From: Mytilinidion resinicola
Lineage: Eukaryota > Ascomycota > Dothideomycetes > Mytilinidiales > Mytilinidiaceae
Direction: 5' to 3'
Assembly (NCBI RefSeq): GCF_010093595.1
Contig: NW_022985463.1
Span: 157,085 to 221,084, forward strand
Length of the DNA: 64,000 bases
The notes beneath the pieces are model-generated. The model ran no database searches and had not been told where the DNA came from. It was given only the letters and a program-made list of their open reading frames with translations. This document shows, in pieces, positions 3,781 to 51,910 of this stretch. Both the position numbers and the translations under genes were made by a program. The stretch's first letter is position 1, and each line of letters opens with the position of its first letter.

Positions 3781-3988
3781 GGCCTAACTTTATAGGCTCA
3801 CGAGGAAAGACTTAAGATGCCCGAACATTAAAATTTTCTCGGCACCAGGGGTTTCTCGGCACCTAGGGACGCACCTTACATATGTGAAGCTCAAACACCG
3901 TTACGTTCACCTCTGCAGACGTTAACGATAGACTCACGTGACCAATACCGCTCTTTGTCCCTCCAATCCCGAATCCCAAAGCAACGCA

Positions 3989-18290: not shown

Positions 18291-18360
18291 TTTTAGAGGC
18301 GCGGTTAATGGTGTTGAAAGACAGGTTGTAATCGTGATTATATAAGAAGCACATCCAATT

Positions 18361-18796
18361 TAACGTGTTCTACATGCATGTGGTGGTTACAAGCGAGTGG
18401 TGGCGCTTAATTTTTGGTGCGATTTGGACGTTTTGACACCCCAGCAACCTCAACAACTATAAAAGATTTGAATCTATAACTTAGAATAAAGATATGCATA
18501 GCTGTTTCAATATTATAAGACAAATTTTTAGGGTCTCTTAATGGCCACATTTAGTTATAGTAGAGTTTTGGCCCCCTAGCATTGGGTAAGATCTACGATA
18601 TAATAGAATTACAGAGACACATCACTCCAAACTATTGCCTAGCCATTGAAATGAGCTAAATACTATATGCATTCATATAATCTTATTTAATACTTTATGG
18701 TTGTTGAGATTGCTGGGGTGTCAAAACGTCCAAATCGCACCAAAAATTAAGCGCCACCACTCGCTTGTAACCACCACATGCATGTAGAACACGTTA
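18361..18796. mobile_element. MITE with ~100-bp near-perfect terminal inverted repeats
   Basis: The left arm (18361-18461) and right arm (18699-18796) are reverse complements with only a few mismatches over about 98 bases. The ends read TAACGTGTTCTACATGCATG in both. The central 240 bases are AT-rich with no reading frame. If the outermost TA at each end is the target-site duplication, the element is 432 bp and would fit a Tc1/mariner-type MITE. The superfamily call is inferred from TA only. The high arm identity suggests recent origin or folding-based conservation. Confidence 0.85.
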
Positions 18797-19285
18797 ACGT
18801 AGTTCACTGGCTAGTGGTTGCCCCTAGCTAGTGGTTGCCCCACCAAATTCTCGCAGCCAAAAACGCGAATTACACAACAACGAACAATCGTATTATATAT
18901 AACTATCTACTAGCTAGTTGCCTGCCGTCTAGGGCACGTACGTGCATTGTGTTCTAGTGAACTGCACATACTGCACTTAGGTGGTGCTCGTTGCCGTGGC
19001 TCGGCCGCTCGGTGAGCCTGGTGATCAGGACAAAAGCCTAATTCAGACGTTCCAAAATGTTACATCCTATTTTAATATTTCATGCCATACCAGAGGACTT
19101 CAGGCAGTACCATCACACTCCCATCCCATTTACACGCACTGCATATCATTCAGCTGACAAAGGTATCAAATAACCGCTCGTGAATCAGCCGCCTACTAAC
19201 ACCTATTTTTCCTTATGCATAACCCCCCAGGATCCACTCCAGATCCTCAAAACGCCGCGCAGACAAGATGGGTATATATACTAAT
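18797..19285. other. spacer with small direct and inverted repeats
   Basis: The 14-base motif CTAGTGGTTGCCCC occurs twice around 18811-18841. GTAGTTCACTGG at 18799 is matched by an inverted TAGTGAACTGC ending near 18965, which could mark a second 165-bp decayed insertion. No gene is seen; the right end is the 3' flank of SPT8. Confidence 0.35.
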
Positions 19286-33140: not shown

Positions 33141-33420
33141 GTGATTCACGTGCACGCTTAGGTAAGTGGCCAAAATCTTTTGTTCGGGCGGGTATAACAG
33201 CTGATATTGGAGCAGAGGTAGAGGACATAGTAGAGTGTTAGGAGAGGGAGGGGAGATCAAACACTGACGGATGAATACATGATGGTCTAATCAAAGTGTC
33301 AGATCTCCGTCCTCATGGAGAGTGGAGGGTTGGCGGTTGGGGTATCAAAACGGTTCTGCGACTGGTGCATTGAGCGGGAGTAGTTGGACTCGGGGGGCCA
33401 GTGATGGCGAAGTGCAGTAT
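33141..33420 (+). promoter_or_regulatory. promoter-like module 1: CACGTG, TATA, repeat arm
   Basis: CACGTGCACGCTTAGG lies at 33147-33162 and GGGTATAA at 33190-33197. Downstream, ATCAAA-type cores occur at about 33256, 33289 and 33343, in the context GGGGAGATCAAA, GATGGTCTAATCAAAG and GGGGTATCAAAACGG. The spacings of about 33 and 54 bases are the same as in module 2. No protein frame is evident. Confidence 0.6.
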
Positions 33421-33510
33421 CTTAGAGGAATACTAGGTTTCATATCGCTACACGGATGCTAAACGGCGGCATTCAATATCTCTCCGATAAGCAGCAAAAA
33501 ACAAAGGAAA

Positions 33511-34062
33511 GCCTACTCATCACCCCCCTTTTTGCTACGTAAACACCCGCCATTTTGCTACACATCAACCCCCCCTAGATTTAGCCTAGCTCCGGCCCGT
33601 ATTAATATTGTTTCACCAATCATGCTCACTTGCTCGCAGCTTATGCAAAGAATCACATGACTCCTAGAAGCGGAAAGCGCCTAGATAGCCACCTCTTAAT
33701 TGCTGATTGAAAGGAACGCCGTATACACCATTATACCAAGGTTTCACACCCGAATATCCTCATGCTGCACCGGTTCCTTCACTACGAACAGCCTCCTTAG
33801 GAGTAGACAGAGGGCCATCATTAAGGGCCAGTTGACTGTTGGGGACTAAGGAAATAGAGCCCTTGGTCACTGTTAGGGTGCCGGCTTATCTGGCGGAGAG
33901 ATCCGGTGCTGTATTGGTGAATTAAAACCCGTAATTAAACAATAGTATTGCCTAAGCGACAGTCTAATTGGTGGAACAAAGTTATTACGAGCCGGAGCTA
34001 GGCTAAATCTAGGGGGAGGGGGGGGGGGGATATGTAGCAAAATGGGGGGGGGATGAGTAGGC
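33511..34062. mobile_element. 552-bp TIR element related to the one at 3.1 kb
   Basis: Inverted arms of about 115 bp begin GCCTACTCATC and share ATTTTGCTACA and CTAGATTTAGCCTAGCTCCG, with C-rich runs between them. The right arm holds G-runs of up to 10 (34021-34029 and nearby) where the left arm has 7 C. The interior includes CCTAGAAGCGGAAAGCGCCT, resembling the basic-peptide start of the 3.1-kb element, and both elements share the TTTTGCTAC plus C-run terminal design. No transposase is present. They look like two members of one nonautonomous family. Confidence 0.7.
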
Positions 34063-34099
34063 TCGTCCAAAACAAATACGTCTGCCCTCTCTCAAACTC

Positions 34100-34760
34100 C
34101 AACTGCAACCACATCGATCGAGTCTTGTACCTGTTTGATCAGAAGATCTCCAACTCCAACACCATTCACTTTTCTACTCTTGAATTTTGATCCAAATGCT
34201 CTTTGCCCCAAACATTGAGGTCTGGTTGAGGTTATTTTACCAGACCGCAGCATACTCCCGACCACATCAGACACTCTTGAGGTCGTATCCGATCCTCTCT
34301 AGTCCTCCTTCCATGAAGAAGAAAGAGGAGCCGCAGCCTGGCGGTCTTTTTTATATGCGGAAGAAGTTTGGAAGCACGAGGGCCCCGTGATCGGAGAGCG
34401 GAGGTGCTGCCAGCAGATCATGCATAGGGGCAGCACATGATGCACGTGAGAAAGAGAGAGCGCGTGGTTCAAGGGAAGAGATCACGGGTCAGTGGAGGAG
34501 CTTCCCAGAGCCGCTGCGATAGGAGATTTAGTGAGGAGGAAGAATACGAGGAGCACGTGAAGCACGTGAGACCTGAAATCCTGCGTGGGTTGGGGTATAA
34601 AAAATCGACTTGCCGGCGAACGAGGGTTTGAAGTCAAGGAAGGGGAAGAGGTGGGAGGAGATCAAAATTCATGAGCTTGTTCATGATGGTCTGGTCAACG
34701 CGGAGAATTGAAGAGTTCTATGGGAAGTGCAGAGCTGGTTGTTGAGTGATCAAATCCGCA
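34100..34760. promoter_or_regulatory. promoter-like module 2: divergent TATA pair with three CACGTG
   Basis: A minus-strand TATA (GCATATAAAA, about 34346-34356) and a plus-strand TATA (GGGGTATAAAAAA, 34592-34604) are 245 bp apart and face outwards. Three CACGTG lie between them (34443, 34554 and 34563). Both arms carry the core GATCAAAATTCA followed by [AT]GAG (34660 on plus; about 34184-34200 on minus). The plus arm also has GATGGTCTGGTCAACG (34684) and GATCAAATCC (34748), matching module 1 in order and spacing. Confidence 0.65.
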
Positions 34761-35340
34761 AAGATCACCATCAATGGCTCGGGGAGACTGGACTGGGTGC
34801 TATGCGAATGAGGGTTGATGATTATGAGCTGCAGTGAGTGGCTCTGAGCGATGTCGACCCGGAGGTGTAGTAATAACGACCACCACCTTATTCTTTCGCT
34901 AACATTCTTCAACATAATGGAGATGGCATCATCCAAACCCCACAGCAACCCTCAGCATCATAGTCCCTAAGGAACGCCGTAGACTCTCCCACCAATCCGA
35001 CCAAGTTCCCCCACCATTAGGCATTTTGGCGCGAAGTTTTGAAGACCCGAACCGCATTGTGAGTCGATATCACCAAGTTTTTGCCCATCCGCTCTCTCCA
35101 TCAAATACCTGGTCTCGATGTTTCAATACACCCGACAAGCTCCCTCCTTGACCACCTACCTCCCCTCAATCCTCCCTCTTATACAAAAGAAAAGCAGCAC
35201 CCACGTGACAAAGCACCCACCACTCAATCACGCCCACTCCCTCCATCCTGCAGTGCTCCCATCTCACGTGAAACAGATAACCACACGTGACCATACCCTG
35301 GCAGTTTGTCTGGCGGGTATAAAGCCTCCGCCTCTCGCTC
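34761..35340. promoter_or_regulatory. promoter-like module 3: divergent TATA pair with three CACGTG
   Basis: A minus-strand TATA (TTGTATAAGAGG, about 35176-35187) and a plus-strand TATA (GCGGGTATAAAGCC, 35313-35326) enclose CACGTG at 35202, 35265 and 35284. The plus arm is the 47-bp repeat array that follows. The minus arm (down to about 34760) is irregular but has GATGGGCAAAAACTTGG. No coding frame is convincing. Confidence 0.65.
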
Positions 35341-35365
35341 CTCAACTTTCGTTCTACAGGGCGAG

Positions 35366-35730
35366 ATGAAGGATGGAAGGGAGCAAACGGCAGATTAGAG
35401 GCGATCCATGGAGAGCGGTCTGGAGGGAGCGAAAAAGTCTACCGCTACGCGCTACGTGGAGGAGGGGATTTGGAGAGCAAAACGCACAGCCGAATCCCCT
35501 CATGGTGGAAGTTTGACTGGAGGAGGCAACACCACTCGCCGCTCAGCACCATATGGAGAGGATTGTGGAGCAAAACAGATGATATAGACCGATGATGGTG
35601 GAAGTTCGGTGGGAGAGAGCAAAGAAGACCTCGACGTCTCCTCATGGAGAGGGGGATGGTGGAGTAAAACCTACTACATCATCCCGTCATGGTGGAATGT
35701 AAACCGTTAGAGGCTGAGCTGAATGGAGCG
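35366..35730 (+). repeat. diverged minisatellite, ~47-bp period, core GGAGNNAGCAAAA
   Basis: The core [TG]GGAG[AG]GAGCAAA[AC] recurs with the A-run near 35393, 35429, 35475, 35526, 35570, 35619, 35665 and 35699. Most spacings are 44-51 bases. Between cores CATGGTGGAAGTT recurs. The array begins about 45 bp after the plus-strand TATA of module 3. Units share little besides the core, so ordinary slippage does not explain the pattern. Confidence 0.65.
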
Positions 35731-35984
35731 GGATCTGGTGGGATTCCAAGAAGTAACAGTAATGGCAGTCGTTAGGCGGTGCCGGGAAAGCTCAACAAAT
35801 CTGCATAATGGCAGAGAGCGGTCCTACAGATTGATGATACCAGATAGCGAGTGAAGGACTCTATAAAAACTAGCAGAAATAAGAGTCAGTGCTCCGAATA
35901 TATACTGGCTACTAGCATTATCCCTCGTGTATCTAGACTTATAGGTAGGAGGAGCAAGAGGCAGTGCAAACCGCTAATAGAAAA

Positions 35985-36190
35985 TGATGAAGTGCATGGA
36001 AATACTTAGCAAACAGCCAGGAAACAGCCCTCCATCGATGACTCTTCGCGTTGTGTTTAATCACTGTTTTACTTCTCCCCTTCCCTCACCTCTCCTTCTC
36101 GTACCCATCCTTACCTCCCTCCTCGCTCACGTTTTATACTCCCCCCTCCCCAATACAACACATCACTCACGTGCCACACGTGCCCTTCGC
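35985..36190 (-). promoter_or_regulatory. promoter-like module 4: minus-strand TATA with two CACGTG
   Basis: A minus-strand TATA (GAGTATAAAACG, about 36131-36141) is preceded on its upstream side by CACGTG at 36168 and 36177. The arm read on the minus strand has GGGGAGAAGTAAAACAG (about 36065-36081), a variant of the array core. No plus-strand TATA is evident. Confidence 0.55.
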
Positions 36191-37855
36191 TTCTCTCCCG
36201 TGACCTCTCCCGTGATCTCTCTCACGCCCACCTCCGCGCCCCTCCCCTCAACCAATCACCCACCCCTGCGCCACCGTTGCCAAGCCCCTCGACACACACC
36301 CAGAGCAATCGGCCGCCTGCCACGATCTTGACAGTTAACGAGCGGCCGTGCGGTGCGCTAGCCATTGCAAACGGGGGTGGCGGGCAGGGTGGTGTGACAT
36401 CCCCATCCCCAAGAACCGCCCCTCCCTTTCTTCTTCGACACGTCCAAATCTGACTTGTCTCCGTCTCCGTCTCTTCAGCGAGCGGATAGCCACGGATAAG
36501 GTGCGATTCGTTGCGTTCTTATTTCATTTCCATCGAGTCCTTGGCTCTCGTTCGGAGATGGGGAGGCCCAGCCAATCCAGTCTTCCTGCACAACGCCCCC
36601 TCATCCCAGCACCCAGCATCCAGCTCCACAGAAATGCAACCCAATAGACTAGGAAAAGAAAGTGGTCCCATTCCGCTATGTACAATCAATCACCTGCCCG
36701 ATTCATGCACCACCCATCCTTCTTGAGGATTAATTCGCAATTCGGAGAGAGTAGTGACTGTGGAGCACTCAATAATTTGAAATGTCGTCTTGGGATCGAA
36801 CCATTGCATTTGCAGGGTCGGGTCTCACACCACCATCAGACGACCTAAGCTCCGCAGAGCATGGTGAATGTGATAAGCTGCAGTCTCCGCCCCCAAATTC
36901 ATGCCAGACACACCCTCTGGCTCAGATCTATGCATTGGGGGGAGCGCATCTCGACACCTCACAAGCGCATACACGTGTGCAATTGGATTGGAAGTAAGTT
37001 TTTCTATGTATGTAGACTTAAATTTCTACCATAAATGTAAGTATGTGAGGTATGTTTCCCATCCCAATACCATACTTTCCTTTCCTCCCTCCTCACGCTT
37101 CAGCCTGCACTCGCATCGAAGAGGACAAACATTACAGTTTTTCTCGCAACCCGAATTGCATACTCCTCGAAGTGTCCAGCGCTTCTCTCGCCAGCCAATC
37201 CACACTCATCTAGCAAGAAAAAACAAACCATACTTTTTATCGTGTTTAAGCATCGTAAATCACAGAAAACAGAACATATAGTGCTGTATATCCGCATTCC
37301 ATATCCGCAGTCAAGAAAGAAAGATTTAGCACAGAACACGGGATATCTCGCACTTGAAAAAACACACGCAAGAAAGAAAAGACATGAAGCATAAGAGAAG
37401 AGAATCTAGGACGGCCTAGAAGCCATCCAAAATGGTATCACACCTATAAATGCCGCACCTTGCGGCTCCGAATTGATCGAAGCAGAGAAGCAGGACAAGA
37501 CAAGATGAAATGAAGCACGAAAGACAGTCAAGACCATCCCCGTCTCATGCCATGCAGGTCCCGCGCCCGCACACTGATGTTTCAGCATGCCAGCGGCCCA
37601 CACCAAAAAGCGCCTAGCCGTACCAGGGATGCCCGAAGAAAGATACAGAGGAAAATGGGGTGAGCGATCAGCATCCTCCAAAACCCGTCCGTGACAGATG
37701 GGGAAAGAGGTCCCGCTAGCCAGGGTGCCATGCTCGTCGCTTCGGATGCGAACATGCAGGTTCATCCGGAGCGTTCGTGCGTTTCGAGCGAGATTTCGGG
37801 TTCCGCGCTCCGACTGCTGAGTCGAGCGCGGGTTGAAACTAGGATTGTGAGATTC
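36191..37855. other. gene-less spacer, 3' side of the DUF8032-like gene
   Basis: No gene is supported. The last few hundred bases are the likely 3' UTR of the minus-strand DUF8032-like gene. The open frames at 36901-37281 and 37406-37765 have no domains. Confidence 0.35.
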
Positions 37856-40800
37856 TTAAGGAGACGACTCGCGCCCTCGACCTCTCTTGCTGCGCTCCAT
37901 CCACCGCCGCTTCCCAACCCGCGTCTCGAAGTGCGGGGCAACGTCGGTAACGTCTTTGCCTGCTGCGACCATGGTGCTGCGCATCTTGTTGCGGTAGGCG
38001 TCCACTGGAGAGGTAAGTCAGCTTCGAGACCCTGACTGCGGCGTGTGCGATGGTTACTTACGAGATTTTTGCAGGAAGAGTGTCCGGTTAGCGAACACCC
38101 GGCTCTGGCTCCAGCTCATTCGATAGCCCAAGTCATTGAGCGTAATCTCCTTGCGTCGCTTTTGCCTCGTCATCCGCGGTTTTGGGACTCTCGCTTCCGT
38201 CCCGTCGAGCATTGGGACTGGAACAAGCGTGGAACCCGAAACTGGCGGAGCGCCCTCCTCATTCGGCTCGATTTCGTCGTTGAACACTCGGCTCCCACGG
38301 GGAGAAGTGGGCGGAGAGGTCATCTGCATGGGGAAATACGATCGGGGAAATACCGAGTTCTTCTCGCGGTAGGAATCTGGCATCTCTTCCATCTGAACTT
38401 GGTCGAGCATGACTCGGACGCGCACTCGCGTTCCTCGCTGCGCATCATCCACAAGGATGAATTTGCGACGCTTAGAATCTGGTAGATCTCCAAACAACGC
38501 AATATTGCGCTCTTCCTCCTCTTGCTTAGTTACTGGCGCGGCCGTCGCATGGGACGGGGCGCGGCCGCTGGAATGCCCCATTCCATCGTGGATCGGCGGC
38601 ATGGTTGATTCGCCCACCGATGAGCTCGTAGGGAACGACGGATAAAAGTTCTGCGTTTGCCGGACGTCGTGTGGCGAAGACTGGCCGTTCGGGGCTTGGT
38701 GGTGGTGAGTGTGCGATTCAGGATACTCATTATCGGCTACATAAGACAAAGGAAATTAGCTCTCACATTTCAAACTCAATCCTCTGGTGCATAATATGTG
38801 TGGTGTGGGGAAAGTGTTACATCAAGGAGTGTAATGTACATGCGATACAGAACGACAGGATGGCTCTCAATTCAATATCCGTCAAGTATGCTTATTGCAC
38901 GTATTGTCACATCTGGTGAAACATACCGCTAACGTCATCTTGCCCTCCAGGCCCACCGCCTGGATGTTCATGGTGGTGGTGCAACTGCGGCCCTCCCATG
39001 CTCATGCTAGGCTGCCTTGGTCCTGGAGCGGCCAAGCCTGCCGAATTCGGACCCCCTGCAGACCCCGGCACAGGACCTGCCATGTGATTATGGGGCTGCG
39101 GCTGCTGAACGGCCTTCCTATTGCTGATCTTGGCCATTCTCCGAACCCGCCTACTCCTTAGGCGTGGATCTTGGTTGCTGTTGCGCCAGCTGTCTACGGC
39201 GCGCTGGATAAGGCCGCGCTTCCCTCTTAGGCACGGGTTGAGCTGGGCGAGCGCCCATCCCACGGTGTTGCACTCGGTCTCGTAATGAAGTCGGTTGCCC
39301 TTGTACTGGTCCTTGTGGCAGCACGCGCGGGGGTATACGCAGTTCTCGGTTTTGAACTCCTGGGCGAGCTCGTCGACGTTGATGGACTCGACATCGCACC
39401 GAATCGTGTACTCCATCTTGACGCGGTCTCGGGAGTACTCAAACGCAATCCATTGGACGCCGTTCTGGTCTTGTCGTACGACCAAAGGAGTGGTTGCTGG
39501 AATGGGGCCGGGAGCTGCGTTGGGGTTGACGTTGGAGCCCGGAGCACCGGGATGCATGTTCGGAGGTCCAACTGGAGGTCCTTGAGGTGCGGCTTGAGGC
39601 GGTCCCAGTCCTGATCCTGGTCGTTGAAGCGGAGCTTGGGACATTCGCGACTTCGGGCTGCCCAATCCAGGCGTGTGCGGGTGCGAGCCTTGGTGCTGCA
39701 TTGGCTGGCCTTGCTGATGGGACATCAAAAGCGAGTTGGTGGCCATCGGCTGGTGCTGCTGGGACGACGGGTGCTGGGCGTAGGGCGATTGCTGTGCTAC
39801 TGGGTACGGCGTGTAGTACATGCCCTGTGGTGGCATCTGGCTCGTCGGCTGCCCGTAGAGAGGTCGTCCATGCTGGTCGTGCTGCGGTGACTGCACTGAC
39901 GCTGGCGAGTTTGACTGCGGCGTGTGGTAGATGGGTGGGAATGTGCGGTTCATGGTAGCGGTTGCCATGAGGTCTGGGTTCTCTGCAGATCCAGTCAGAA
40001 ATCAATACAGCTCGGGGCCCGCCGTTTCGACAGGGCGAGGTTCCCACGACGCGTCTTCTTGCAGAACATCCACAAAACAACAGAACCGCTGCCACAACAG
40101 AAGCACTGCGAGACAAACGCGTCAGAGGAAAAGAGCTTTGAAACTGACCTGAGGACGTGTAGCTTCCGGAAGCACTGTTCGTGCTGTACGGACTCGGGTG
40201 GGCAGGGTAGTAGGGGACTTCCTGCTGCTGGCCTGGCGGACCTGGGATCGGATTTCCGTACGGCGACTGGTGCTGCTGCGGAATCGATGGATTGGATGGG
40301 TGTGGCGACGCGTACGGTCCTTGAGCCGGCGACTGCGCGGGTTGAGACTGGTGAGGAGAGTCAGGATGATGCTGCTGGACGACGCCCGCGCGCGGATGTT
40401 GGAGATGCTGTGGCGGTGGGAGGCCCTGCGCTGAGGGGTGGGGGTGATGCTAGCGCACGACACGTTAGCCACGACGTCCCTACAGTGGATGAGTAATGAG
40501 CAGGGGAGTGGTGTGGTGTTGCAAAACAAAAGCCCTCGCGCACATCCACGTCCTGGCAAGAGAGCAGTAGTACCTGGGCGAGATCGGAGCAGACAGATCA
40601 GACCAAGGGTGGGAGACTGGACAAGGAGAATAGACAGGCAGAAGAGACGGCAAACAAATGCAGGGTTTTTGAGAGGATGGAAGCAAGTGGGTGATGGTTG
40701 GATGGGTGGCGGGGGTGAGGGGCATATGAGGGCGGTGTCTTCAGAGATGCGCACTAGGCCAACCGCGTTCGGACAGCTCTGGACCAGGGTGCGTGCAAGG

Positions 40801-41319
40801 CGGCGGTGACAGAAGGAGACATAGAAAGACCACGCAGTGCGGAGGAGTGCTCAGACGGCGACAGCAGCGCGCGCTGGTGAGTGGTCCGGGCAGGACGCAC
40901 AGCGGAGGGCTGGGACGAGGCTCCAGGGTTCCGCTGCTGGCCTCGGGCGCACTGCTTGGACATGACAGGGGGGTGCTGGTGCAGGAGAGGCCATCGCAGG
41001 ACAGGTGCAAGACGAGAGGGTGCAGGCTGGGGGGGTGAGGGTTGAGGCCGCTGCTTGGCGAGAAGGGCCTACCATGTAGCCAGTGCAGCACTGGAGCTGG
41101 GGGTTGGGGGATAGCTCGGGATGCGGCGTCGTTGCAGCGCGGATGTGCAGCAGAGGGCTGATGCATGCAATGGGCAAAGCCAACGGTCGGAGGGAGGGTG
41201 CGCGAGTGGTGGAGGTTGAGGAGCAGGGAGGCACTCACCAGCTGGGCCGCCACAGGAGCCGGCTCTTCCTTATACTTGCGGGGGCTGCCTGCCCTATCTC
41301 GCGACGACGCATGCGACAT
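37856..41319 (-). CDS. Q/P-rich nuclear regulator with conserved fungal domain (DUF8032-like)
   Basis: The model is complement(join(37856..38004,38062..38736,38927..39982,40149..40449,41239..41319)), 753 residues, all junctions in frame. Introns are 57, 190, 166 and 789 bp. After a Gln/Pro/His-rich N-terminal half, a conserved block of about 110 residues (GVQWIAFEYSRDRVKMEYTI, then CDVESINVDELAQEFKTENC and PRACCHKDQYKGNRLHYETE, ending PRLRSRRVRRMAKISNRK) appears. I recall it as a fungal domain of unknown function, DUF8032. A second conserved part has KRRKFILVDDAQRGTRVRVR and MSWSQSRVFANRTLFLQKS; the end is basic (GKRRWMERSKRGRGRESSP). Composition suggests a nuclear transcription regulator. 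The first exon (MSHASSRDRAGSPRKYKEEP) is joined by the longest intron and is the least certain; a microexon near 41075 is possible. Confidence 0.75.
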
Positions 41320-44300
41320 TGTTATTATTGCTGCTGGAGGTCTGGGGGGAGTCAGTGTGAGTTGGGCGCGAGGGCAGGCCGTGCAGGCTAACAACGGCCG
41401 TCTGTGCAGTGCCGCGCTAGCTGCGTAATTTCAGCACACCACCGCCTCCAGGGTGGGCCCCGGGCTGCGTGGAAAAGAGAAACGCCCTAACGTGCCGAGT
41501 CCAGCCACCGGCTTGGGCGGAGCGCTGGGGCAGGTGCACGGCGAGGATACGGCTGTGTGAGTGGCCGAGGGCGCTGCAGCAGCGGGACGACTGCCTGTTG
41601 CGAGCTCCGGCGCCGCGGCTGTTGAGCGCGGATAAGGCCCTGTGCAACGGCCGCTGTCCGCAACGGGCTGGCGGGAGGGCGTGGTTGTGCCGGGGGGACG
41701 GCCGGGGCGAGCGCTGGGATGCGCGCACGAGTTCGGGGTGGCAGAGGAGCGCTGGTTTGCCGGCGGGTCGCTGGTGCTGCGAAGGTGCTGGGTTGTGTGC
41801 CGGGTATCGGCTAGGGCTTCGGCAGGGCGAGCTCTGATGGCGGCGATGGCCCGGGAGGCGGCCAGCCTGCGCGTGGGAGATGAGAGGACGGCGACAGGGG
41901 AGCTGCGCGGTGGAGCAGCGAGGACGAGAGATGGAGGCGATGGCCTGGTGGATGGGGCCAGGATGGACGACATGTCCTTGAGCGTCGCGTGCGCCGGCTG
42001 GCTTCCGGGATGCCAAGCCCGGCCGCGCGGCGCTAACCTCGGCGCTACCGCTTTCTTTAGCCCAAGACAGCCAGTATCTTACCACCGGGCCCCTTCCAGT
42101 GAAATGTAACGCCCGTATTATACCTCGCGCTCAACTGCTGCCCGCCACACCGCGGAACCCACTCCACCTCTGCCAATTTTATCCATTTATATCGGCGCAA
42201 ACCACTGAACGCCTCCCGCCACCATTGACACGTTCGCGCTAGGGAGGCACATCCTCTCTCGCACCCTAAAATTGCAGAGCCCGCCGCGCTGGAATCACAT
42301 CTTTCAAACGCGCCCGCGTCCCGAACGGTGCCGCCTCTGAGCCCGCAACCCACGATAATACTCCGCCGCGATATAGCCTAGGTTGCGCTCGCGGTGCCGT
42401 GTCTCAGATGCGACAGCTGCTCGGTTCCCTCGAGTCCTCGGCCTGCTGTCCTCGACGTCCTGCTAGCCCAGCGTCGACTCGGGGCAGACGCATCCTCCGA
42501 GTTGCTCCCATTGGCCTGCGGGCTGCTCGAAAATGCAAGTGATCAACGTCAATCAACGGCCACAGCGCGCGCCAGACGCCCCTAACCTGCTTGTGCCTGG
42601 CGGGCCCCATCCGCCCCATTCGACGCGGATCGACACAGCAGCACAGACGGAGCCTGTCCGACACGGCACGCAGGATGCGAGAAGGAAACATGGCGTCGAC
42701 GGGCGAGCCCTGGGGATCTTCGCTCATTTCGCTCCCTGCGAGCCGTTGATCACGTCCAAGCCATCCGTCGCGCGCAGGCCTGTCAGAGATCGTGAACACT
42801 GCGAGGAAAGTTGCGGCGCTGCCACCACTCCTCGAGACGGCCGCAAGAATCATGCTCCGGAGCGTCTCAACGCTGCCTGAGTCGCTGCTGAGATTGGAGA
42901 GCAATGCTGACCTGGGAGGATGCCTGTGCGTCTTCATGCGATGGCGCGCAAGACGTTGGCCCTGCACGCCCAAGAGCCAACGGCGCGCCGGCAGATGCCA
43001 CGGCGATGGCAAGGCGGGCTGAACTGGCCTCATGGCGCAGACGAAGGCCAATGTCGCCATCCAACTCTCTCCCCTTCGCGGTGCAGGAGAAATGAGGGTC
43101 GCGTTGACACGGGCGCCACAGCGAGAAAGAGTCCTTCAAGTAGCTTCGCCGCTGGCCCGCCGCGGGCCCGCCGCGGATGTCAGAATGGCCTGATGCTGAG
43201 CAGAAGGATGCGCTGCTACTGCATGGCGCCCACCCGGAGTGCCAGAATAGATTAAAGCTCTGGATTCGCCACTGAGGACAAATCGCAACGGAACTCTCCA
43301 CCCGGCGTCGGTTCCGTCGCGCTGATAAACTCGCAAAAACCTGCTCAGCGTTGAAACGAGCCGCGTCACGAGCGTGTCAACTGTCGGCTTTTTCCAAGAC
43401 TGAATAGGCTGACAGCGCTCGCCGGCTGGGTGGAAGATGCGACGTGAGGTCGAGGCTATAGCACATATAGCACATCCTGGTATAGCAAATGCTCCTAAAT
43501 GGGCAGCCTGCGAATGCGGAGACACCCTGGGAGCGACTGGGAGTGACAGCTTGCCTAAAGAAGCACCGCTGCTGAGTTAACAAGGGCAATTACTCAGGTA
43601 CCGAGGAAGGGTTAATGCCTGGTGCTGCAACAACAACTCTAATCCAACAACTGGAACGCCCTCAGGCACGACGTCGAGCTCGAGCGGCGCATCGCCATCG
43701 GCATCACAATCAGCAACACCTTCGGACGGCGTCGACAGCACGAGCAAACGATGGCGGCTAACCAAAGTCTCGCGAGCTCGACAGCTCAACTGGAGAATCC
43801 TTCGGGGTGCAACGGCATGCGATCGAGCGGATCGAAGGCTACCGAGGTGAGGACGACTGATAACAACTGTGAAGGTGTGCTGTGCCGGGACCCAGCGTTC
43901 AGAGACGACGGAGATTTCTCCCTTTCGCAACAGAGGCCGTCTCGAGCAGGACGAGCTGCACGAGATGCGGGCAGGCGCCTGGAGATCTCGTCCGAAAAGG
44001 CCGCTGCCCCGCGGACAGCCAAACGGACACTCATGCTTCGAGTCGCTGTCGCACGCCCAACGCGATAAAAGAACGGCGGCGTGCATCTGAAGTCGCTCAG
44101 ACCAGCAGCGCGGCGGCGTGCAGCCGGCCACAAGTCAGCAGCGCGCTCGTGGTGCCCGAATGCAAAATTAGCCCGATAGGCTCGCGCCGTCATCATGTGC
44201 CAGTTCTACCACGTCAACGCTTCCGCTCAGTGACACAGCTTGCGGATCCAGAGAGCAGTAGCTAGAAGAGGGGGGTGCGTCGTGGAGAGTCGCCATCACA

Positions 44301-47300
44301 TCAGCTACACTGCGGTGGCTAGTCTCTGCTGTCGCGGTGTTGATGTCTGAGACTCTGAGGGTGGGGTTGGCAATGCTCAACGTGCCCAGCCCGGCCGTTG
44401 AGCTTGTGCTGACGGGAGACATGGATGCGATGCCTGTCGCGCCGCCCGCTGTCCATGCCTGCCGACAACGGTGGGCGATCGGCCGTGAGGGTATGGGAGC
44501 ACAGGCTCGTGGAGGCCCCAGGATATGCCGTTTCTTACCGTACCGATAGAAAACGGAGCGCCTCCGGCCTAGACCAGCAGGGGTCGTCTCCCAGGCTCGA
44601 CTCTCAAGGTTCCCCCGACGGTATGTAAAGCCTGAAACAGCATTCACTCAACGCCTCGATATACCCTCATTCTGGCCCCAATCAGCATCTGCCGGCCACT
44701 CTATCCAACGCATGCTCTGCTATACTTAACTGCCGGAGACGTGGTTCCGGCGCGGTCTCCGCGAATACCAGGCTGAAGTAGAGATCAGCACCACATGCTC
44801 TCCGCCAGCAGCCCCCGTTTCCATCTGCGATGCAAGACCCTCGTCAGAACCACTCCGGATCCTCCCACGGGCTAGACAGCAAGGCCTCGACCGATTCTGC
44901 TGCTGCCTGTGGCCCGGAAATTTAAATTAAGGTTGCTGCCAGGCGGCGTCAAGCAGCAGCATGGGAAAGGGGCAGGCAGCCCGATTGTGGAGGACGCCAG
45001 CCAGCCTCCCCTCCCATGCTCGCGATCTCGTCAGACTTCCGCTGCCTGCCTTGCTTCCCGCGCTTCCTTGAGGGTGATGGCTCTGCTCCCGAGCAAGCCT
45101 GGCCAGCGCAGCAATCGAGCCAGGAGGCCTGGCGGTGTGGACAGGCAAGCCGGCCCCCGGCGGCGGAAACACACGAGATGGCTTTTGCCGGCGATCCGAG
45201 GCATCGCACGGCTCGACAAGGAGCGATCTGAGGAGGACTTTGTCGTTGCTTTGAAATGGACCTCTAACCGAGCTCTCGAAACTCAACGGCCATGCATAAG
45301 CGTGGTTCTGGCAAGACCGTCTCGCGCCATGATTTGCTGCCCGGCGCGTTTTCTGCTGGCGGCGCTGTCGCCATGGCCCTCCGGCCGTGCAAACCATGTC
45401 CTTAGCAGAGCGGCAGTGCCAGGACTGCCCTGCTTCCCGCTCATTCCTAGTCGGTGACCGGGGGCCCTGATCACTTTGTCTGACAGGCGGATGGTGGGGT
45501 TCTGGCAGCGGCATTGCTTTCATGGGCTGATATGTCTGCGTCCACTCCATGATGTCAGGAGAGCCGCGTGTCGTCGATTGGACTCGCTGGCGGGGGCCAG
45601 ACTGCCGCTTGGACACGGCTGCTGTTGCTGAGATTTGTTAATGCATCCTTCAGGAGAAGAACTGTTTTGACCCAGACTGGCGGGTCGTCAGCGGTCCAGG
45701 ACACGTATCGCTCGAGATGGCTTCGCAAACATGGCACAGGCGACCAGGCGAGATGCTGTGCCAGATAGAGCGAAGACTCCTAATTACCTCAGGCAACACG
45801 GCTGTGCAACCTCGCGTGGGACCTTGGAGGCCGCGAGAGGTTTCGAGCGCAGCATCAGAAGCGATCCTCTGCAGCAACGCGTTGGCCAATCAGCACGCGT
45901 ATGGCACCATCCGAAGAGCATCGCTCACAGACTTGCATCAGTCACCGGAAAAGGCACCTTTGCGCCGTCTCTCCGCCCGTATCGCTCCGCTCTACACGAA
46001 TCGCGCCCACAAAGCGGCTGACGTGGCACGCGAACTCGTCTGGCTGCGGTATGCGCAGCTTGGAAGATGGAGGCCTGACGGCATGGCGATCGACGCGCGA
46101 CGTGCTGGACCGTTGTCACTCTCCGCATCTCCGCCCTGGTCCCGTGACTTGCGCGTGATTGTAGCGGGGATTGAGGTGAAGGAGGCCCAAGCCAAGCCAG
46201 CAGCCCTTTTCCGCCCGATGAACGCCTTAGTTTTCGGCAATTGTCGCTGGCGCCGGGACGATTTCCATGGTTTAAGGAAACGGTGCGCGGAGCGATTTCA
46301 ACGAAAAGCCACTCATCAGCCCGCGACGCCTTGCAGCGCTTAGCCAGCCTTCGCAGACCCAGTGCGGATCGCGGCCGATGTGCTTCGAGGGCCCTCGCCG
46401 ACCGAGTCTTGATGGCGGTTTCGAGGCTGCGAGCCCGTGACAGCCACACACATGTGCTGGCCGTGCTAGCCGTTGATCCAGCTTTCCCCACTTCTCCGAG
46501 GCCTTGCTCCTGGTGTGTGTCCCGGCGTGGTTGTTGGCGGTCCTGGCAGCTTCCGGCACCCCTGTTCCGACGAGCTCTCTCGAGGTCTCTCCTCTGCCAC
46601 TGCGCATCGGGACTGTCACCGTTCTGATGTCTTACAGCGACGCCAGAGCAAACACAGACAAAGGTCGAGTCCGCATCCACAAACGGCCGAAACGCCGATT
46701 ACGCCAGGCAATTTTGATTTCTGCGCATTTAGCTGACGTTGATGGGCGCTGCGGTGACACGCATCCGCTTCCTCCGAGAATAAAGTCCGCAGCGACCACT
46801 ATTGCGCTGTATTACAGTAAGGCGAACATCACCACACCGGGTGCGACAGTGCTCTGGCGAGGTCTCAGCCTGCGTGAGTCGTTTGAGGGACGAGGACAGC
46901 AGGTGGATTGTGCAGCAGCCTCACCGTGGGGCCGTTCTCGTCGAGCTTCTAGCGCTTTTCTAGAAAAAGGGGCCTTCCCTTCACTGCGGTTTCAACCGCC
47001 AACTTTATATCGCCGACGAGTCACGTCTGTCGAAGCACTGTTGCACCATTGCAATGGGCGGCTCTCGCGGGCGGAGCATTGACGGATCACCAAACATCAT
47101 AGTCCAATCTACTAACATCAACCGGACCAACTAACAATAGGATAGTCACGCAAACCTCCATCCACCCCACGCATCGGCCACCATAAACGCGTCCTCCAAA
47201 TTGCCCAATCCGAGCCAGCATAGAAACGAAATAGTCGCCGGATCACGAGATGAGATGCGTCACGGCGTCCCACCGTGTCTTGTGTCCCACAACCTCGTTT

Positions 47301-48900
47301 GCCCGTCAACGCGGGCGTCTCCAACGCCGTAGCTGTGGATGCCGCAGCGAGGTGCGCGCCGGTAATGGAAGGGATGTCCACGCGCGTGCCATGCCGTCTC
47401 ACATTCCGCAGCAGTTCCGTACGTACGTACCGCAGGATCACACAGGCACCGCTCCATTCGAACCGCCCTGGCATCCGGCACTCTCCTCGCTGGTAGCGAC
47501 TCGAGAAGAGCCGGGTCGGGGGAGGGTAAGGCGTGGGCGAACGGACACGCGGGGTATCGTTTCTCCCGTGTCTTGTCCAGCGTTCCCTAACCACACGCGT
47601 ACGTCTCGCGCCACTAGCTACCGTCGAGACGTACAAATAGCTGCTAGCGGCGCTGTGATTGGTCGTATTGTGTGTTCCATAACACTCGCCCTTTGCGTGC
47701 GGCGTGTGGCAAATAGAACGGCATCTCACGCTATGTCGAAAAGCGAAACATTGTGAGTGGTATGTATTTTGGGATAATGACAAATCTCCAAACGCCGAAC
47801 ACTGGCCACGGCAGGAAGTGGGTGCTTTTGTCAGCTGGACTGGACCTGCGCCTGGGCTGCTGGACGCGATGTAGGCGCTGTGGAAGGTGAGTTTGCTGTG
47901 TTTATGCGTCTGACTGTGGTACGATTTGGCGAATCCTTCGCGCGAGGCGGGCGGGTGGTGGGTTTCAGAAGGCTGCTTGCATCGCACGGCATAAGGTGGG
48001 GGCTGCGACTTGTTTTAGTCGTGGTATCCGGTGATGATGTGCGGGGTGAGCGAGCAGCATCACTTTCCTATTTCAGATTCGTGATGTGGGATAGGAGATC
48101 AAAAGATGAGTCTCGTAGTACTAAACAGGTAGGTCTAGTTGCCTTGTTCGGCTATGCTGCATTTACATTTCGAGATTCGTATATCAAATCTATCCACTCA
48201 TGCACTATATGCCATGTCTTGGTCACTATCATGCGGATATCTGAACTACTATTCTCGTGTCTCTGCAAAAGACTACCATCACGCAGTCATCAGGTCTCTT
48301 TCTACGTCAACACCACATCAAACGCACCCGCGTCTTGACGATTTGCAGTCGCATGCTTCATGCTTACCACCATCCCTCTACCCCTTCCACCCAGACCCCT
48401 CCCCTATCTCTTCTCCAGCTCAGACTTCAAGCATCCTCCCGTAAAGCTCACCCCATCCCATTCCCCCGCTCGGCTACATACCCAAACCCAAAATATCACT
48501 CCCACACCAACTAACAACCCCGTATTTCCCAAAAACCAACTCGGTAGGCATCCCACCAAGCTAATCAGTCCTCTCCTCCTGGCGCGACAGATATCTCGCA
48601 AGACGGCCTCGCACCAGATATCGAAACCACTCGGTCTAAATCCTAGCTTCTTCTCCCACCTTCCTAACTCAGCCATCCCCACGCGTGCGGTCGTCGGAAA
48701 TGGTATTCGGGGCGGTGGGCGGTCTTACGGAGCGCACATCCGCTACGGGGACGCCGAGGGTCGGTGGTTGGTGCAGCATTTCGCCGATCTGGACGGGTGT
48801 GCTGTTGACCACCGCGTTGAGAAGGTGCCTTTCCTGAAGCGGGGAATAGACAGCAAGTGGGAGCTTGAGTAAGTCCCGAGATGGGCACGCTGTCCCCGTG
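41320..48900. other. ~7.5-kb GC-rich, gene-less upstream region
   Basis: From 41.3 to about 47 kb the DNA is GC-rich, with long overlapping open frames on both strands. None shows a domain, biased codon use or a natural protein composition; the frames reflect lack of A/T-rich stops. From 47 to 48.9 kb composition returns to normal without a clear gene. The region is upstream of the DUF8032-like regulator. Long upstream regions are known for fungal developmental regulators, so extended regulatory DNA or long leaders are possible, but I see no defined sites. Confidence 0.4.
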
Positions 48901-49290
48901 CCTGGGGCTTTCTTTTGGTATAAAAGATCGTAGGCGGAGGTGAGCCTAAGACAGGGAGGAGTTCAGCCGGCCACTATCGATATATGAGAGATGTCGACTC
49001 GATGGAGTGAGCGGTCGAGCAAAAAGGGTTATTGTCACCAGCCATATGAGTTTTGGACTTTCAAACCCAAAACCCGGATACGACATGGTTGGTTTGTTTG
49101 CGGAGAGGCAGCTTGGGAGGGTGTGAAAGCCGAATGCACAGCATCTGATGGTGCGCTGGGTTGATCTAGGTACGTTTAGTTGGTGGAGATTACCGAGACG
49201 ACTCGTTGAGTGTAGTTGGGGGGTTTTGATGTCGACGTTGGATAGAAGACGCAGCTGGTGGTGTGCGCTGTCTTTTATAATCAATTCAAA
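48901..49290 (+). promoter_or_regulatory. promoter-like module 5: plus-strand TATA and repeat arm
   Basis: GGTATAAAAG (48917-48926) is followed by GTGAGCGGTCGAGCAAAAAG (about 49008-49027), then TTTCAAACCC and CGACATGGTTGGTTTG. These resemble the array cores of the other modules. No exact CACGTG is present; the nearest is GTGCC/GGCAC pairs around 48880-48905. Confidence 0.45.
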
Positions 49291-49520
49291 AAGCGTAATT
49301 ACCGAAATACGGTGATATTCGTCTCCTCAGAATGTTAATTTTGATTCTTATCTTCAGACAAATATCCTCCTAACTATCATCATTCGTATCCAAAACCTCC
49401 CGACTCCGCCAACACAAACACCCGCACCATTCGGATCCGAATCAAGCGGTGGTTTGATCTCCCACGCAATCCACGCCATGATGGGCCCCATGTAACTGAT
49501 GTGCCCATGGAGGTAGAACG
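49291..49520. other. end of minus-strand repeat arm, no gene
   Basis: No gene is seen. The sequence continues the minus-strand arm of module 6 without a clear repeat core. Confidence 0.3.
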
Positions 49521-49830
49521 CTGGATCTTTTGCTCCCCCAAACGACACCACATTAGAAGACTCTTCGTGGAATTTTGCTCCCTCCAACCAGCCCATCACA
49601 TCGATTGGTGGGACTCTGCCTTTTGCTTTCCCAAACAACGCCACATCATATGAAAGTTGGCGGTGATTTTGCTCCCTCCAACCAACCCGCCACATGGGAT
49701 CACGTTCTCGAACTGTTGCTCCAGCCAAACAAAACCACATGATAGGAAAATGTCTAGGCTTTTACTCTCTTCCACCGAACCACCACATTTATGGTTGCTT
49801 CCCTGAATTTTGCTCCCCCGCCTCGACCGT
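49521..49830 (-). repeat. diverged minisatellite, ~47-bp period, same core as at 35.4 kb
   Basis: On the plus strand TTTTGCTCC[CA] or close variants start at about 49528, 49573, 49621, 49667, 49715, 49759 and 49807 (spacings 45, 48, 46, 48, 44, 48). Read on the minus strand the unit is ATGTGGnGGnTTGG, then GGAGGGAGCAAAA. This is the same core and period as the array at 35.4 kb, again starting shortly after a TATA box. Sequence between cores differs between copies. Confidence 0.75.
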
Positions 49831-49869
49831 TGAGGTCGACCTTGAAGAAAGGAAGTTGAAAAGTGGAAG

Positions 49870-50360
49870 GGGAGGTTTTATACCCGGTGGCAGAGCGGAA
49901 AGGAGGGGAGTCACGTGGAAGGGAGGAAGGTGGCAGCTGGCGTAAGAAGGGCAAAGGATCAGTGAGGAAAGCATGAGTTGTATTGAGGTGCTAACGAGTG
50001 GCTATATAGTGAAGAGAGACCAGGGGTTGCAGGCAGCAACGGTGACAAAACAACAGGTGAACCTTGTCCAGCCGAGAAGTGAACCCTGTACAGCTGAGAC
50101 GCGTAGGCAGACGTGCGTAGGAGCATTCTAACTGGCTGCCAGATGAAGCGAGATGTGAGGGGGATAGGGGAGGTGGACGTGGGAGAGGGATATGCGGAGT
50201 AAGGTGAGCACGTGGTCGATTGCAAGTCACATTTTGCCTGCTTTCCTCCAGATATAAAGGAGAGGAGTGAGAGTGAGAGATTGTCTAGGGAGGAGGTTCC
50301 AATGATTGGTTTTCAAACCCAGAGTCGGAACAAGGAATGGAGGGAGTGGCTGAGCAAAAT
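49870..50360. promoter_or_regulatory. promoter-like module 6: divergent TATA pair with two CACGTG
   Basis: A minus-strand TATA (GGGTATAAAACC, about 49874-49885) and a plus-strand TATA (AGATATAAAGG, 50250-50260) are about 370 bp apart and face outwards. CACGTG occurs at 49912 and 50209, each within 50 bp of one TATA. The plus arm carries GGTTTTCAAACCC (about 50307) and GGCTGAGCAAAATC (about 50349), 42 bases apart. The minus arm is the 47-bp array. Confidence 0.65.
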
Positions 50361-50639
50361 CAGAACTCCCGATATTCATGTGTGCAAGATTTTGAAAAAC
50401 AACAGGACGAAGGAACTAGTCCTCAGACTGGTGCCATCATCCGTGAAAGAGGATGCTTAACATCGCCCCGTTAAGTTAACGAAGATCATCGTACTCGTTC
50501 GAACGCTACTTGTACCCCTATTCCGAAGATAGATGCTCAACCTCGTTCCTATATTCCAGTAAACGCTTTTTTCGGTGCGTTAATCTACCCACAACACCCA
50601 ACCTTGTAAGAGTGTTGTGAAGATTGTTGATGCCACTCC

Positions 50640-51410
50640 ACCCCAACTCAATTCATGGGCAATAACTACCCACGATATTGATATCCCGACCTCCGCAGTC
50701 CAGTCATGAGTTTGTTTAGAAGAGCGGTTTGAACCACCCCATCGCTAGGAAATCTGCGAGGTGTTGAAATCCCGATCTCCGCTGTCTAGCCATAGATTCT
50801 GTTCGACAGAAGTTTGAACCAATCCATCATTGGGAACTCTTCAATCTGTTGATACCCCGACCTCCTCAATCCAGCCATGTGTGTTTCTCTTGGCTTTTTC
50901 TTGAACGAACTCGTTGCGAACAAGTCCTCAAAGCGATGTTGATTTCCCGACCTCCACAGCCCAACCATGTGTTCTTGTTGTTGGTGAGATTGAACCAACT
51001 CATAGACAAGTTCCGCAAACTGTTGTTTCCCAGACCTCCCCAGCCCAACAGGTATTTCGAAGTCTGATTTTTTGAACCAAACCACCTCCCACGCATAGGA
51101 ACCTTAGCTTTGGGGTGGTGACAGCACGCCCACTCCCACCAACCCATCACTGCTTCCCGTCGATATGTTGATATCCAGGCCAACCCAGCGCAGCCATCGT
51201 GAGCCAGTTTGTGGTATTTCAACCAAGCCTCGCTCCGAACCATTCAAAGCTCGCCAGGTGGAAGTTTGACACTCCCACTCCCACTCCCACCAACTCATAG
51301 GCTGATAATGTCTGGTTTGTTGATCTCCAGCCCCCACCCCAGCCACAAGATTGGCCAACAGGATGTTTTGAACCACCCACACGGCCCTATCCAGCCCCAT
51401 CGGTGTTGCC
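50640..51410 (-). repeat. tandem array, alternating ~43-45-bp half-units
   Basis: On the plus strand CCCGACCTCC-type cores (about 50684, 50771, 50856, 50946, 51029, 51172, 51325) alternate with TTGAACCA-type cores (about 50729, 50814, 50901, 50990, 51072, 51217, 51367). Successive half-units up to 51072 are 39-45 bases apart, giving an 86-bp higher-order period; beyond that, spacing is longer. Read on the minus strand the cores are GGAGGTCGGGAAATCAACA and GGTTGGTTCAAA, variants of the G-rich/CAAA design in the other arrays. Confidence 0.7.
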
Positions 51411-51639
51411 TGGTAGCAGTTCTGCCAACACTCCGCTCCTCCACCCCAAGCCATCAGACCCTTACACCTCGGTACTTGATCCCAAACCTCCATCCACACA
51501 GCCATCGTACTCTATCCTCATCGATATTGAACCACCACACCGCCCACTCCCACCCAGCCATTCGGCAATGATCATTTGGGTTTGATTCCCTCTCCCACCC
51601 AATCCATTCCAGCTGAAGGCATAAGATTTTGATTCTCCC

Positions 51640-51910
51640 CTCCTCCTTCTTCCCTCCTTCTGTGTTTGCTCTGAAGAAGAAGAAAGCGAGACGGGGGGGG
51701 GGGGAGAAGTTTATATACCGCTTAGGCGCTAAGGCGCTTGGCGTTCACGGGGGGAAGCTCGTGACTGGAAAGAGGGGAGGTGGTGACATTGAAAGAGGGG
51801 AAGCGGCATGTGATGGGCGTGATGTGGATGGATGCGTTGTGGACGGATGCGTGACGTAGCAAGAGATTGTGCTGAAAGGAGACCGTGACGTGAACTTGGT
51901 TGGATGGTTG
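51640..51910 (-). promoter_or_regulatory. promoter-like module 7: minus-strand TATA upstream of the 50.6-51.6 kb array
   Basis: A minus-strand TATA (GCGGTATATAAACTTC, about 51706-51721) points into the array. CGCTTAGG next to it (51719-51726) is also found after CACGTG in module 1 and at 26.9 kb. No exact CACGTG is present here. A run of about 12 G lies at 51693-51704. Confidence 0.5.

Follow-up and report, generated by a model that had tools for sequence, protein, structure and literature searches.

Promoter-led arrays of variable 20-nucleotide spacers set between TCAAA and ATGG in the genome of Mytilinidion resinicola

In CRISPR (clustered regularly interspaced short palindromic repeats) arrays of bacteria and archaea, a leader is followed by near-identical repeats that alternate with spacers, each of them unique and nearly all of one length. 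In the A-repeat arrays of the noncoding RNA Xist, a conserved core recurs between spacers of loose length, and recombination signal sequences and bacterial promoters are motif pairs separated by a mere spacer. Among fungi, the microRNA-like RNA (milRNA) loci catalogued in PMC9757828 are described there as hairpin loci, the major milRNAs of Neurospora are given as RNA polymerase (Pol) III transcripts (PMC3547838), and meiRNA of fission yeast is presented as a long noncoding RNA with many UNAAAC-type motifs (determinants of selective removal, DSR), UCAAAC being one of them (PMC4077057). Here, a dispersed and apparently noncoding family of arrays is described that was noticed in a 64,000-nucleotide (nt) stretch of the genome of the fungus Mytilinidion resinicola (contig NW_022985463.1, positions 157,085 to 221,084; referred to as the window), where about ten arms led by a TATA box lie between positions 33141 and 51910. 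Read away from TATA, these arms follow one rule: a G/T-rich linker, TCAAA (or GCAAA, or TCAAC), a spacer of 19–21 nt, ATGG, and the next linker.

The likeness to a CRISPR array lies in the promoter followed by repeats that alternate with unique spacers of near-constant length. In contrast to CRISPR, no near-identical direct repeats are present: the fungal linkers are degenerate (28 ± 6.6 nt in 152 linkers of up to 45 nt), differing in length and sequence, with nothing but the anchors and the G/T bias in common, the spacers are ~20 nt long and the locus is nuclear; moreover, a spacer source was not found for the three spacers that were compared with the genome and IMG/VR. Xist A-repeats resemble the arrays in having short conserved cores parted by variable spacers, but here the spacer length is fixed and the linker loose, which is the reverse of Xist. 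With recombination signal sequences the arrays share two short motifs about two helical turns apart with free sequence between them, and differ from these in forming direct-repeat arrays behind promoters. As far as fungal milRNA loci are characterized in the two sources cited, the arrays are like them in being noncoding loci of an Argonaute-bearing genome whose product would be of similar size; unlike them, they contain many units per array, their promoters suggest Pol II rather than the Pol III of Neurospora, and their spacers fold no better than shuffles. No stem-loop precursor was found in 42 runs, which folded as did runs with shuffled spacers (mean z of the minimum free energy −0.06). A comparable layout was not found for any fungus in a literature search, the coverage of which excluded most subscription journals and all bioRxiv preprints and which is, thus, no proof of absence. 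The layout does not pass tests that define a CRISPR array, a hairpin milRNA locus or a minisatellite.

Array grammar and genome-wide spread

The distance between [GAT]CAA[AC] and ATG fell into the 17–20 nt class in 34 cases in nine arms of the window, whereas in 500 dinucleotide-preserving shuffles of these arms the best class held 5.5 cases on average (standard deviation 1.3, maximum 10). An earlier note on this DNA, made from its letters alone, had described short cores recurring every ~45 bp. The recurrence is real in that the spacing is far above shuffles, but the median unit period is 48 bp (93–94 bp for the unit pairs in the right arm of module 3 and the left arm of module 6; modules are numbered as in Table 1) and it is not fixed. 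Plain autocorrelation, which the note had proposed as a check, exceeded 100 shuffles in these two arms and in module 7, and did not in module 1, both arms of module 2, the left arm of module 3, module 5 and the right arm of module 6 (module 4 lay outside the test); the signal is confined to three arms because linker lengths vary. What stays constant is not the period but the 20 nt that separate TCAAA from ATGG. Correspondingly, of the evenly spaced binding sites envisaged in the note, the gap within a unit is even and the distance between successive cores is not, and its "diverged sequence between cores" is actually a spacer of 19–21 nt plus a loose linker. Modules 3 and 6 do carry the same GGAGnnAGCAAAA type of array in opposite orientation, as had been noticed, whereas module 4, included there as a family member, yielded a single unit in the unit scan.

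A two-unit sequence profile, built from 27 of 52 unit-pair rows from the window and nine other loci (rows in another register, among others, were omitted), gave 27 matches (E ≤ 10) against the 64-kb window. All were located inside 33242–51642, and seven of them are rows from which the profile was built. In 89 linkers, G makes up 52% and T 25% of the bases; TGGA and GTGGA are over-represented and GGG is under-represented. G-quadruplexes formed by the linkers were considered and rejected (31 two-tier matches vs 25.9 in shuffles; 85 GGG runs vs 113.5).

The grammar is not restricted to the window. In the 47.1-Mb genome, the pattern TCAAA-N18-21-ATGG-N10-38-TCAAA matched 177 times, compared with 38 matches for the reversed pattern. 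A stricter form (starting with GATCAAA, N19-21) matched 41 times on 16 of 44 contigs, compared with none reversed, so that the further genomic copies which the note had asked for were found; two of the 41 begin at a common position in contig C2, and the linker of another (C10:309661) is rich in C. When the gap of the strict pattern was set to N24-26, only 3 matches resulted (reversed control, 2), at least two of them without a G-rich linker. Therefore, the 20-nt distance is a genome-wide property. At 17 loci outside the window, ATGG followed at 19, 20 and 21 nt in 34, 44 and 19 cases, respectively (2.2–2.4 in 40 shuffles), and after removal of the pattern-selected anchors still in 19, 33 and 11 cases (2.8 per distance class elsewhere).

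For statistics on single units, 242 units in 79 runs, of which 33 units lie in the window, were collected from 34 of 37 examined sources. Detection requires the anchors, a G/T-rich flank and a spacer of 18–22 nt, features that are, thus, conserved by construction. Five of 30 pattern loci (L010, L013, L019, L024 and L028) served as sources, chosen for their array-like look; of the other 25, which were left out, six overlap the five or one another. A further 31 regions were picked from array-like pattern matches, and counts on them are enriched by choice. The window was not selected by pattern and contains 3 matches of the looser pattern and 33 units in runs; scaling the ~139 excess matches of the genome accordingly would give roughly a thousand units in total, an order-of-magnitude figure that derives from three matches. 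A BLAST search with module 7 retrieved one other stretch, on C2, and one with the array of locus L042 retrieved only itself; such a search may miss isolated 20-nt matches.

The arms are, judging by their codon structure, noncoding. A protein-coding role of the repeats, such as precursors of repeated short peptides that each begin at an ATG, is scarcely credible, despite a 128-amino acid open frame through module 6 and an ATG in each unit (which is there by definition): unit length is uniform modulo 3 (35/30/30), stops occur in all three spacer frames (42 of 1507, 34 of 1452 and 31 of 1380 codons), and for 50 of the 242 unit ATGs an in-frame stop follows within nine codons. Neither the window nor nine further loci contained a match to Rfam 15 above the gathering score, and ARAGORN detected no transfer RNA (tRNA) within the window. 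A resemblance to tRNAs or Pol III B boxes, and C/D-box guides, were considered and dropped, as were hairpins inside spacers, the palindromes of which were not above shuffles (40 spacers). The suggestion of the note that this is a noncoding transcription unit in repeated copies, rather than a simple satellite, fits the genome spread, the modulo-3 uniformity, the Rfam result and the one-way orientation of the TATA boxes.

Promoters and spacer turnover

A stretch of 250 bp or more precedes 52 merged arrays. In 35 of these, TATA[AT]A was present no further than 250 bp upstream, and in 29 it lay at a distance of 60–127 bp. At the mirrored far end of arrays, the motif was present in only 2 of 48 cases, and at random positions in 17%. 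Two of the 35 TATA-led arrays (L061− and L064+) may be using the TATA box of a neighbour. Within 90 bp upstream of TATA, 23 of 30 promoters had CACGTG, CACATG or CATGTG (background, 13%), and 13 of 30 had GTGAC or GTCAC, partly overlapping the CACRTG-type sites (background, 11%). The rigid combination of CACGTG, 6 bases and TATAAA was uninformative (6 matches vs 17 in the reversed control). In the window, the TATA boxes were found where the note had placed them and CACGTG was found near modules 1, 2, 3, 4 and 6, with none within 70 bp in modules 5 and 7; the outward-facing pairs of TATA boxes claimed for three modules are present in modules 2 and 6, but in module 3 the left one is merely TATA-like. 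The promoters suggest transcription by Pol II. Distances from CACRTG to TATA in the 30 array promoters cluster near 25, 35, 45 and 56 bp, corresponding to a resultant of 0.64 at 10.5 bp, compared with 0.16 for a smooth null (reached in 0 of 5000 trials); the test comprised 33 of 35 sites (those at 77 and 84 bp were dropped), among which are pairs from a single promoter, and gave a broad peak (9 to 12 bp). This order makes it plausible that an E-box-type factor works from a fixed side of the helix.

The helical order of the promoters would also suit a reading at the DNA level, in which a protein or protein pair contacts TCAAA and ATGG on one helix face at a distance of about two turns, the intervening 20 bp are a mere spacer, and the arrays behind the promoter tune transcription or chromatin. 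At 20 ± 1, the spacing found here is rigid while the sequence within it is free, as is usual for double-stranded DNA sites, and the clear genome-wide spacing control (41 vs 3) points in the same direction. However, successive units do not stay on one helix face, given that no 10.5-bp order was found in linker lengths (p 0.77) or periods (p 0.39) in 152 cases; the orientation of the units is tied to TATA, and it is left unexplained why a spacer is retained in some pairs and differs completely in the others. Such a DNA reader is considered doubtful.

The same fixed distance from motif to ATGG, together with the strand-specific layout, could alternatively reflect miniature transcription units, in which the G/T-rich linker and TCAAA would act as a mini-promoter and each spacer would be the start of one short RNA, in analogy to the individually transcribed piRNA (PIWI-interacting RNA) genes of nematodes. 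This is improbable, as one set of TATA and CACRTG heads many whole arrays and would be superfluous in that case.

The content of the spacers is almost free. Positions 2–17 carried between −0.01 and 0.05 bits after small-sample correction, the first position (the base after TCAAA) was A in 62% and C in 20% of the 242 units, and the last two bases lean to C. Lengths of 18, 19, 20, 21 and 22 nt were represented by 8, 64, 115, 47 and 8 units, respectively. Related spacers were rare: 3 pairs with at least 16 matches were found among the 242 (0 in shuffles), all within one array, and weak similarity was somewhat above shuffles (at least 11 matches, 529 pairs vs 403; at least 12 matches, 125 vs 90). 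The 12-mer ATTGAAGAGTTC is common to the spacers at 34700–34719 (+) and 50828–50847 (−), at different offsets (shuffle mean, 0.04 pairs at that length). TA depletion was 0.63 in spacers, 0.65 in three nearby reading frames and 0.53 in intergenic DNA, and GA and TC were commoner in spacers than in either of the latter. In this respect, the spacers resemble ordinary DNA more closely than random additions, a likeness that mutational equilibrium would equally bring about.

Duplicated units or blocks are present in the arrays L019, L042, L046 and L062. When unit pairs of one locus and strand were compared whose 40 flanking bases (anchors excluded) scored at least 18, the spacers of 16 of the 19 pairs were at random identity (5–10 matches; random mean 7.1, 99th percentile 11), those of 3 pairs had 18–20 matches, and none were between. 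Chance likeness of G-rich flanks could inflate this table, a doubt from which the collinear blocks of L042 and L046 are free; one pair of L068 with 12/20 spacer matches was just under the flank threshold and is outside the table. In L042, one pair agrees at 35/40 flank positions but has unrelated spacers (6/20), whereas another with less similar flanks (30/39) has almost equal ones (18/20). The histories of linker and spacer are, therefore, uncoupled. One 20-mer is identical in module 7 and in the array on C2, although the surrounding 105-bp stretch is 81% alike; it is absent from the table because the module 7 unit then has GTG. L046 (−; C8:1951200-1953600) is a long array with 13 units in the merged count and three paralogous blocks, and a 10-bp inverted repeat is located in the linkers either side of its first spacer.

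Spacers, thus, seem to be replaced as whole blocks. The all-or-none pattern is unlike even drift; whole-slot replacement would yield it, and so would recombination between units. This bears on the possibility of a decayed minisatellite with chance promoters, that is, tandem copies which drift under a residual motif constraint. Recent tandem duplicates do exist in L019, L042 and L062. Still, drift would not hold the 20-nt slot exact while erasing its content; inside homologous frames the spacer is not unit-like, as a minisatellite requires, being at random level in 16/19 pairs; the intermediate identities to be expected were seen in 0/19; and the TATA boxes on one side would be unaccounted for, which makes this explanation very improbable. 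With regard to the anatomy itself, namely the array grammar, its spread through the genome, the association with and orientation to promoters, the rare kinship among spacers and their block-like differences, the sequence leaves hardly any doubt that it is as described here.

Coordinates and neighbouring elements in the window

The modules of the window are compiled in Table 1.

Table 1. Modules of the array family in the window (positions of the window; spacers listed from TATA outwards)
Feature	Positions	Strand	Details
Module 1 promoter	33147..33199	+	CACGTG 33147-33152, TATAACA 33193-33199
Module 1 arm	33240..33480	+	spacers 33262-33281, 33296-33314
Module 2 left arm	34070..34355	-	TATAAAA 34349-34355; spacers 34216-34235, 34166-34185, 34115-34133
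Module 2 CACGTG sites	34443..34568	.	at 34443, 34554, 34563
Module 2 right arm	34596..34900	+	TATAAAA 34596-34602; spacers 34667-34685, 34700-34719, 34755-34773
Module 3 left arm	34920..35184	-	TATA-like GTATAAG 35178-35184; spacers 35058-35079, 35018-35037
Module 3 CACGTG sites	35202..35289	.	at 35202, 35265, 35284
Module 3 right arm	35318..35860	+	TATAAAG 35318-35324; spacers 35388-35407, 35482-35501, 35531-35552, 35575-35594, 35624-35643, 35669-35688, 35704-35722
Module 4	36036..36182	-	CACGTG at 36168, 36177; TATAAAA 36132-36138; one weak unit, spacer 36036-36055
Module 5	48919..49260	+	TATAAAA 48919-48925; spacers 49024-49045, 49066-49084
Module 6 left arm	49360..49882	-	TATAAAA 49876-49882; spacers 49789-49808, 49741-49760, 49696-49714, 49647-49667, 49602-49621, 49554-49573, 49509-49528, 49431-49452
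Module 6 CACGTG sites	49912..50214	.	at 49912, 50209
Module 6 right arm	50253..50480	+	TATAAAG 50253-50259; spacers 50318-50336, 50359-50377
Module 7 arm	50560..51717	-	TATATAA 51711-51717; spacers 51608-51627, 51562-51580, 51299-51318, 51244-51264, 50828-50847, 50794-50812, 50743-50762, 50708-50727, weaker units between
Module 7 spacer, 20 nt	51347..51366	-	identical copy in array on contig C2, 1006259-1006278

The homologues of the gene neighbouring the modules carry PF26087, the named ones being called DUF8032; its exon itself gave no match in Pfam. That exon has a single match in the genome, and a homeologous copy of the locus was rejected as an explanation. Between modules 1 and 2 lies an element resembling a miniature inverted-repeat transposable element (33510-34068), with terminal inverted repeats of 50 nt at 90% and outer C-rich ends with TTTTGCTAC. 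A second long inverted-repeat element, seemingly of the same style, is located at 3071-3795 (arms of 82 and 40 nt at 93–98%; end units of 22 bp, TGCTAC..GTACGACCCC). In addition, the window contains an inverted repeat at 18360-18797 (109-nt arms, 96% complementary, 220 nt between them) and, at 52609-54609 (−), an Ala/Ser-rich open frame of 666 amino acids with an internal 246-bp tandem repeat, for which a Pfam search gave no match.

Possible function of the arrays

The arrays look like a stored library of small sequences. Small RNAs have a size range that includes 20 nt, and the arrays may, as a tentative proposal, be precursors of ~20-nt RNAs that are processed and loaded as Argonaute guides. 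The noncoding family would be transcribed from its CACRTG and TATA promoters into RNAs in which variable spacers of ~20 nt alternate with G/U-rich linkers that begin with AUGG and end in UCAAA. A 20-nt product would be delimited by these two flanks, the long RNA being cut at or near them, and the pieces would enter one of the Argonautes of the genome as guides, with no hairpin precursor involved. Spacers would, thus, be the payload, exchanged as blocks, and linkers the frame. A guide array of this kind accounts for both the slot of 20 ± 1, which would equal the product length, and the block-wise content, which would be that of a payload. The genome does encode Argonautes, for which 12 Piwi matches were obtained (the strongest three lie in open frames), and RNA-dependent RNA polymerases (7 matches on 4 contigs). 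Apart from three clean Argonaute frames on C3, C18 and C6, a cluster of Piwi matches was observed at C1:2610639-2619140, several with internal stops that may be introns or decay. One Argonaute reading frame of the genome shows 100% identity over 864 amino acids to a protein of M. resinicola, a saprobic dothideomycete of the order Mytilinidiales; among named Argonautes, those of Lepidopterella palustris and Glonium stellatum come nearest.

Several findings argue against spacers acting as guides. Argonaute guides commonly begin with a 5′ U, whereas the first spacer base is mostly A. One motif would suffice to measure a product, and the need for two anchors is unaccounted for. In 42 runs, the openness of spacers in predicted folds was barely above that of shuffled spacers, the mean z being 0.27 with a standard error of 0.15. 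Finally, no clear target emerged for the three of the 242 spacers covered by the target search, which are kept in duplications: beyond the array copies, near matches in the genome numbered 2 at 3 mismatches for one spacer (reversed control, 1), 5 at 2 mismatches for another (control 2, thus above it) and 1 at 3 mismatches for the third (control, 8). Exact matches in IMG/VR were 0, 1 and 0 viral contigs, and the single match, to a 19-nt spacer pattern, was taken as chance.

Alternatively, the transcript as a whole could matter, as a decoy or scaffold that gathers an RNA-binding protein through its many UCAAA (plus AUGG and UGGA-rich) motifs. TCAAA is present in each unit, albeit by definition of the unit, and the enrichment of TGGA and GTGGA and the scarcity of GGG in the linkers would be in line with such a role. 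The analogy is to meiRNA, which, according to PMC4077057, lures Mmi1. The motif of the arrays differs from that described there in that it is mostly UCAAAA, has AUGG as its partner at a constant distance of 20 nt and belongs to a large dispersed family; the decoy motif ends in C, whereas only one in five units has C after TCAAA. Furthermore, a second anchor at a set 20 nt and the replacement of blocks are unexpected on flexible single-stranded RNA. A decoy is rather unlikely.

Taken further, the guide-array proposal would amount to a eukaryotic system with hundreds of exchangeable guides of ~20 nt, hairpin-free processing and the swapping of spacers as whole cassettes, of an origin independent of CRISPR and piRNA; this full form is unlikely. 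If the 20 nt are instead a ruler on DNA, the arrays would represent a two-site DNA reader of a new kind with many sites. If the spacers are guides, fungi would keep a stored, changing guide library outside the hairpin model, and such a library would be renewable and comparable in its logic to CRISPR arrays or piRNA clusters.

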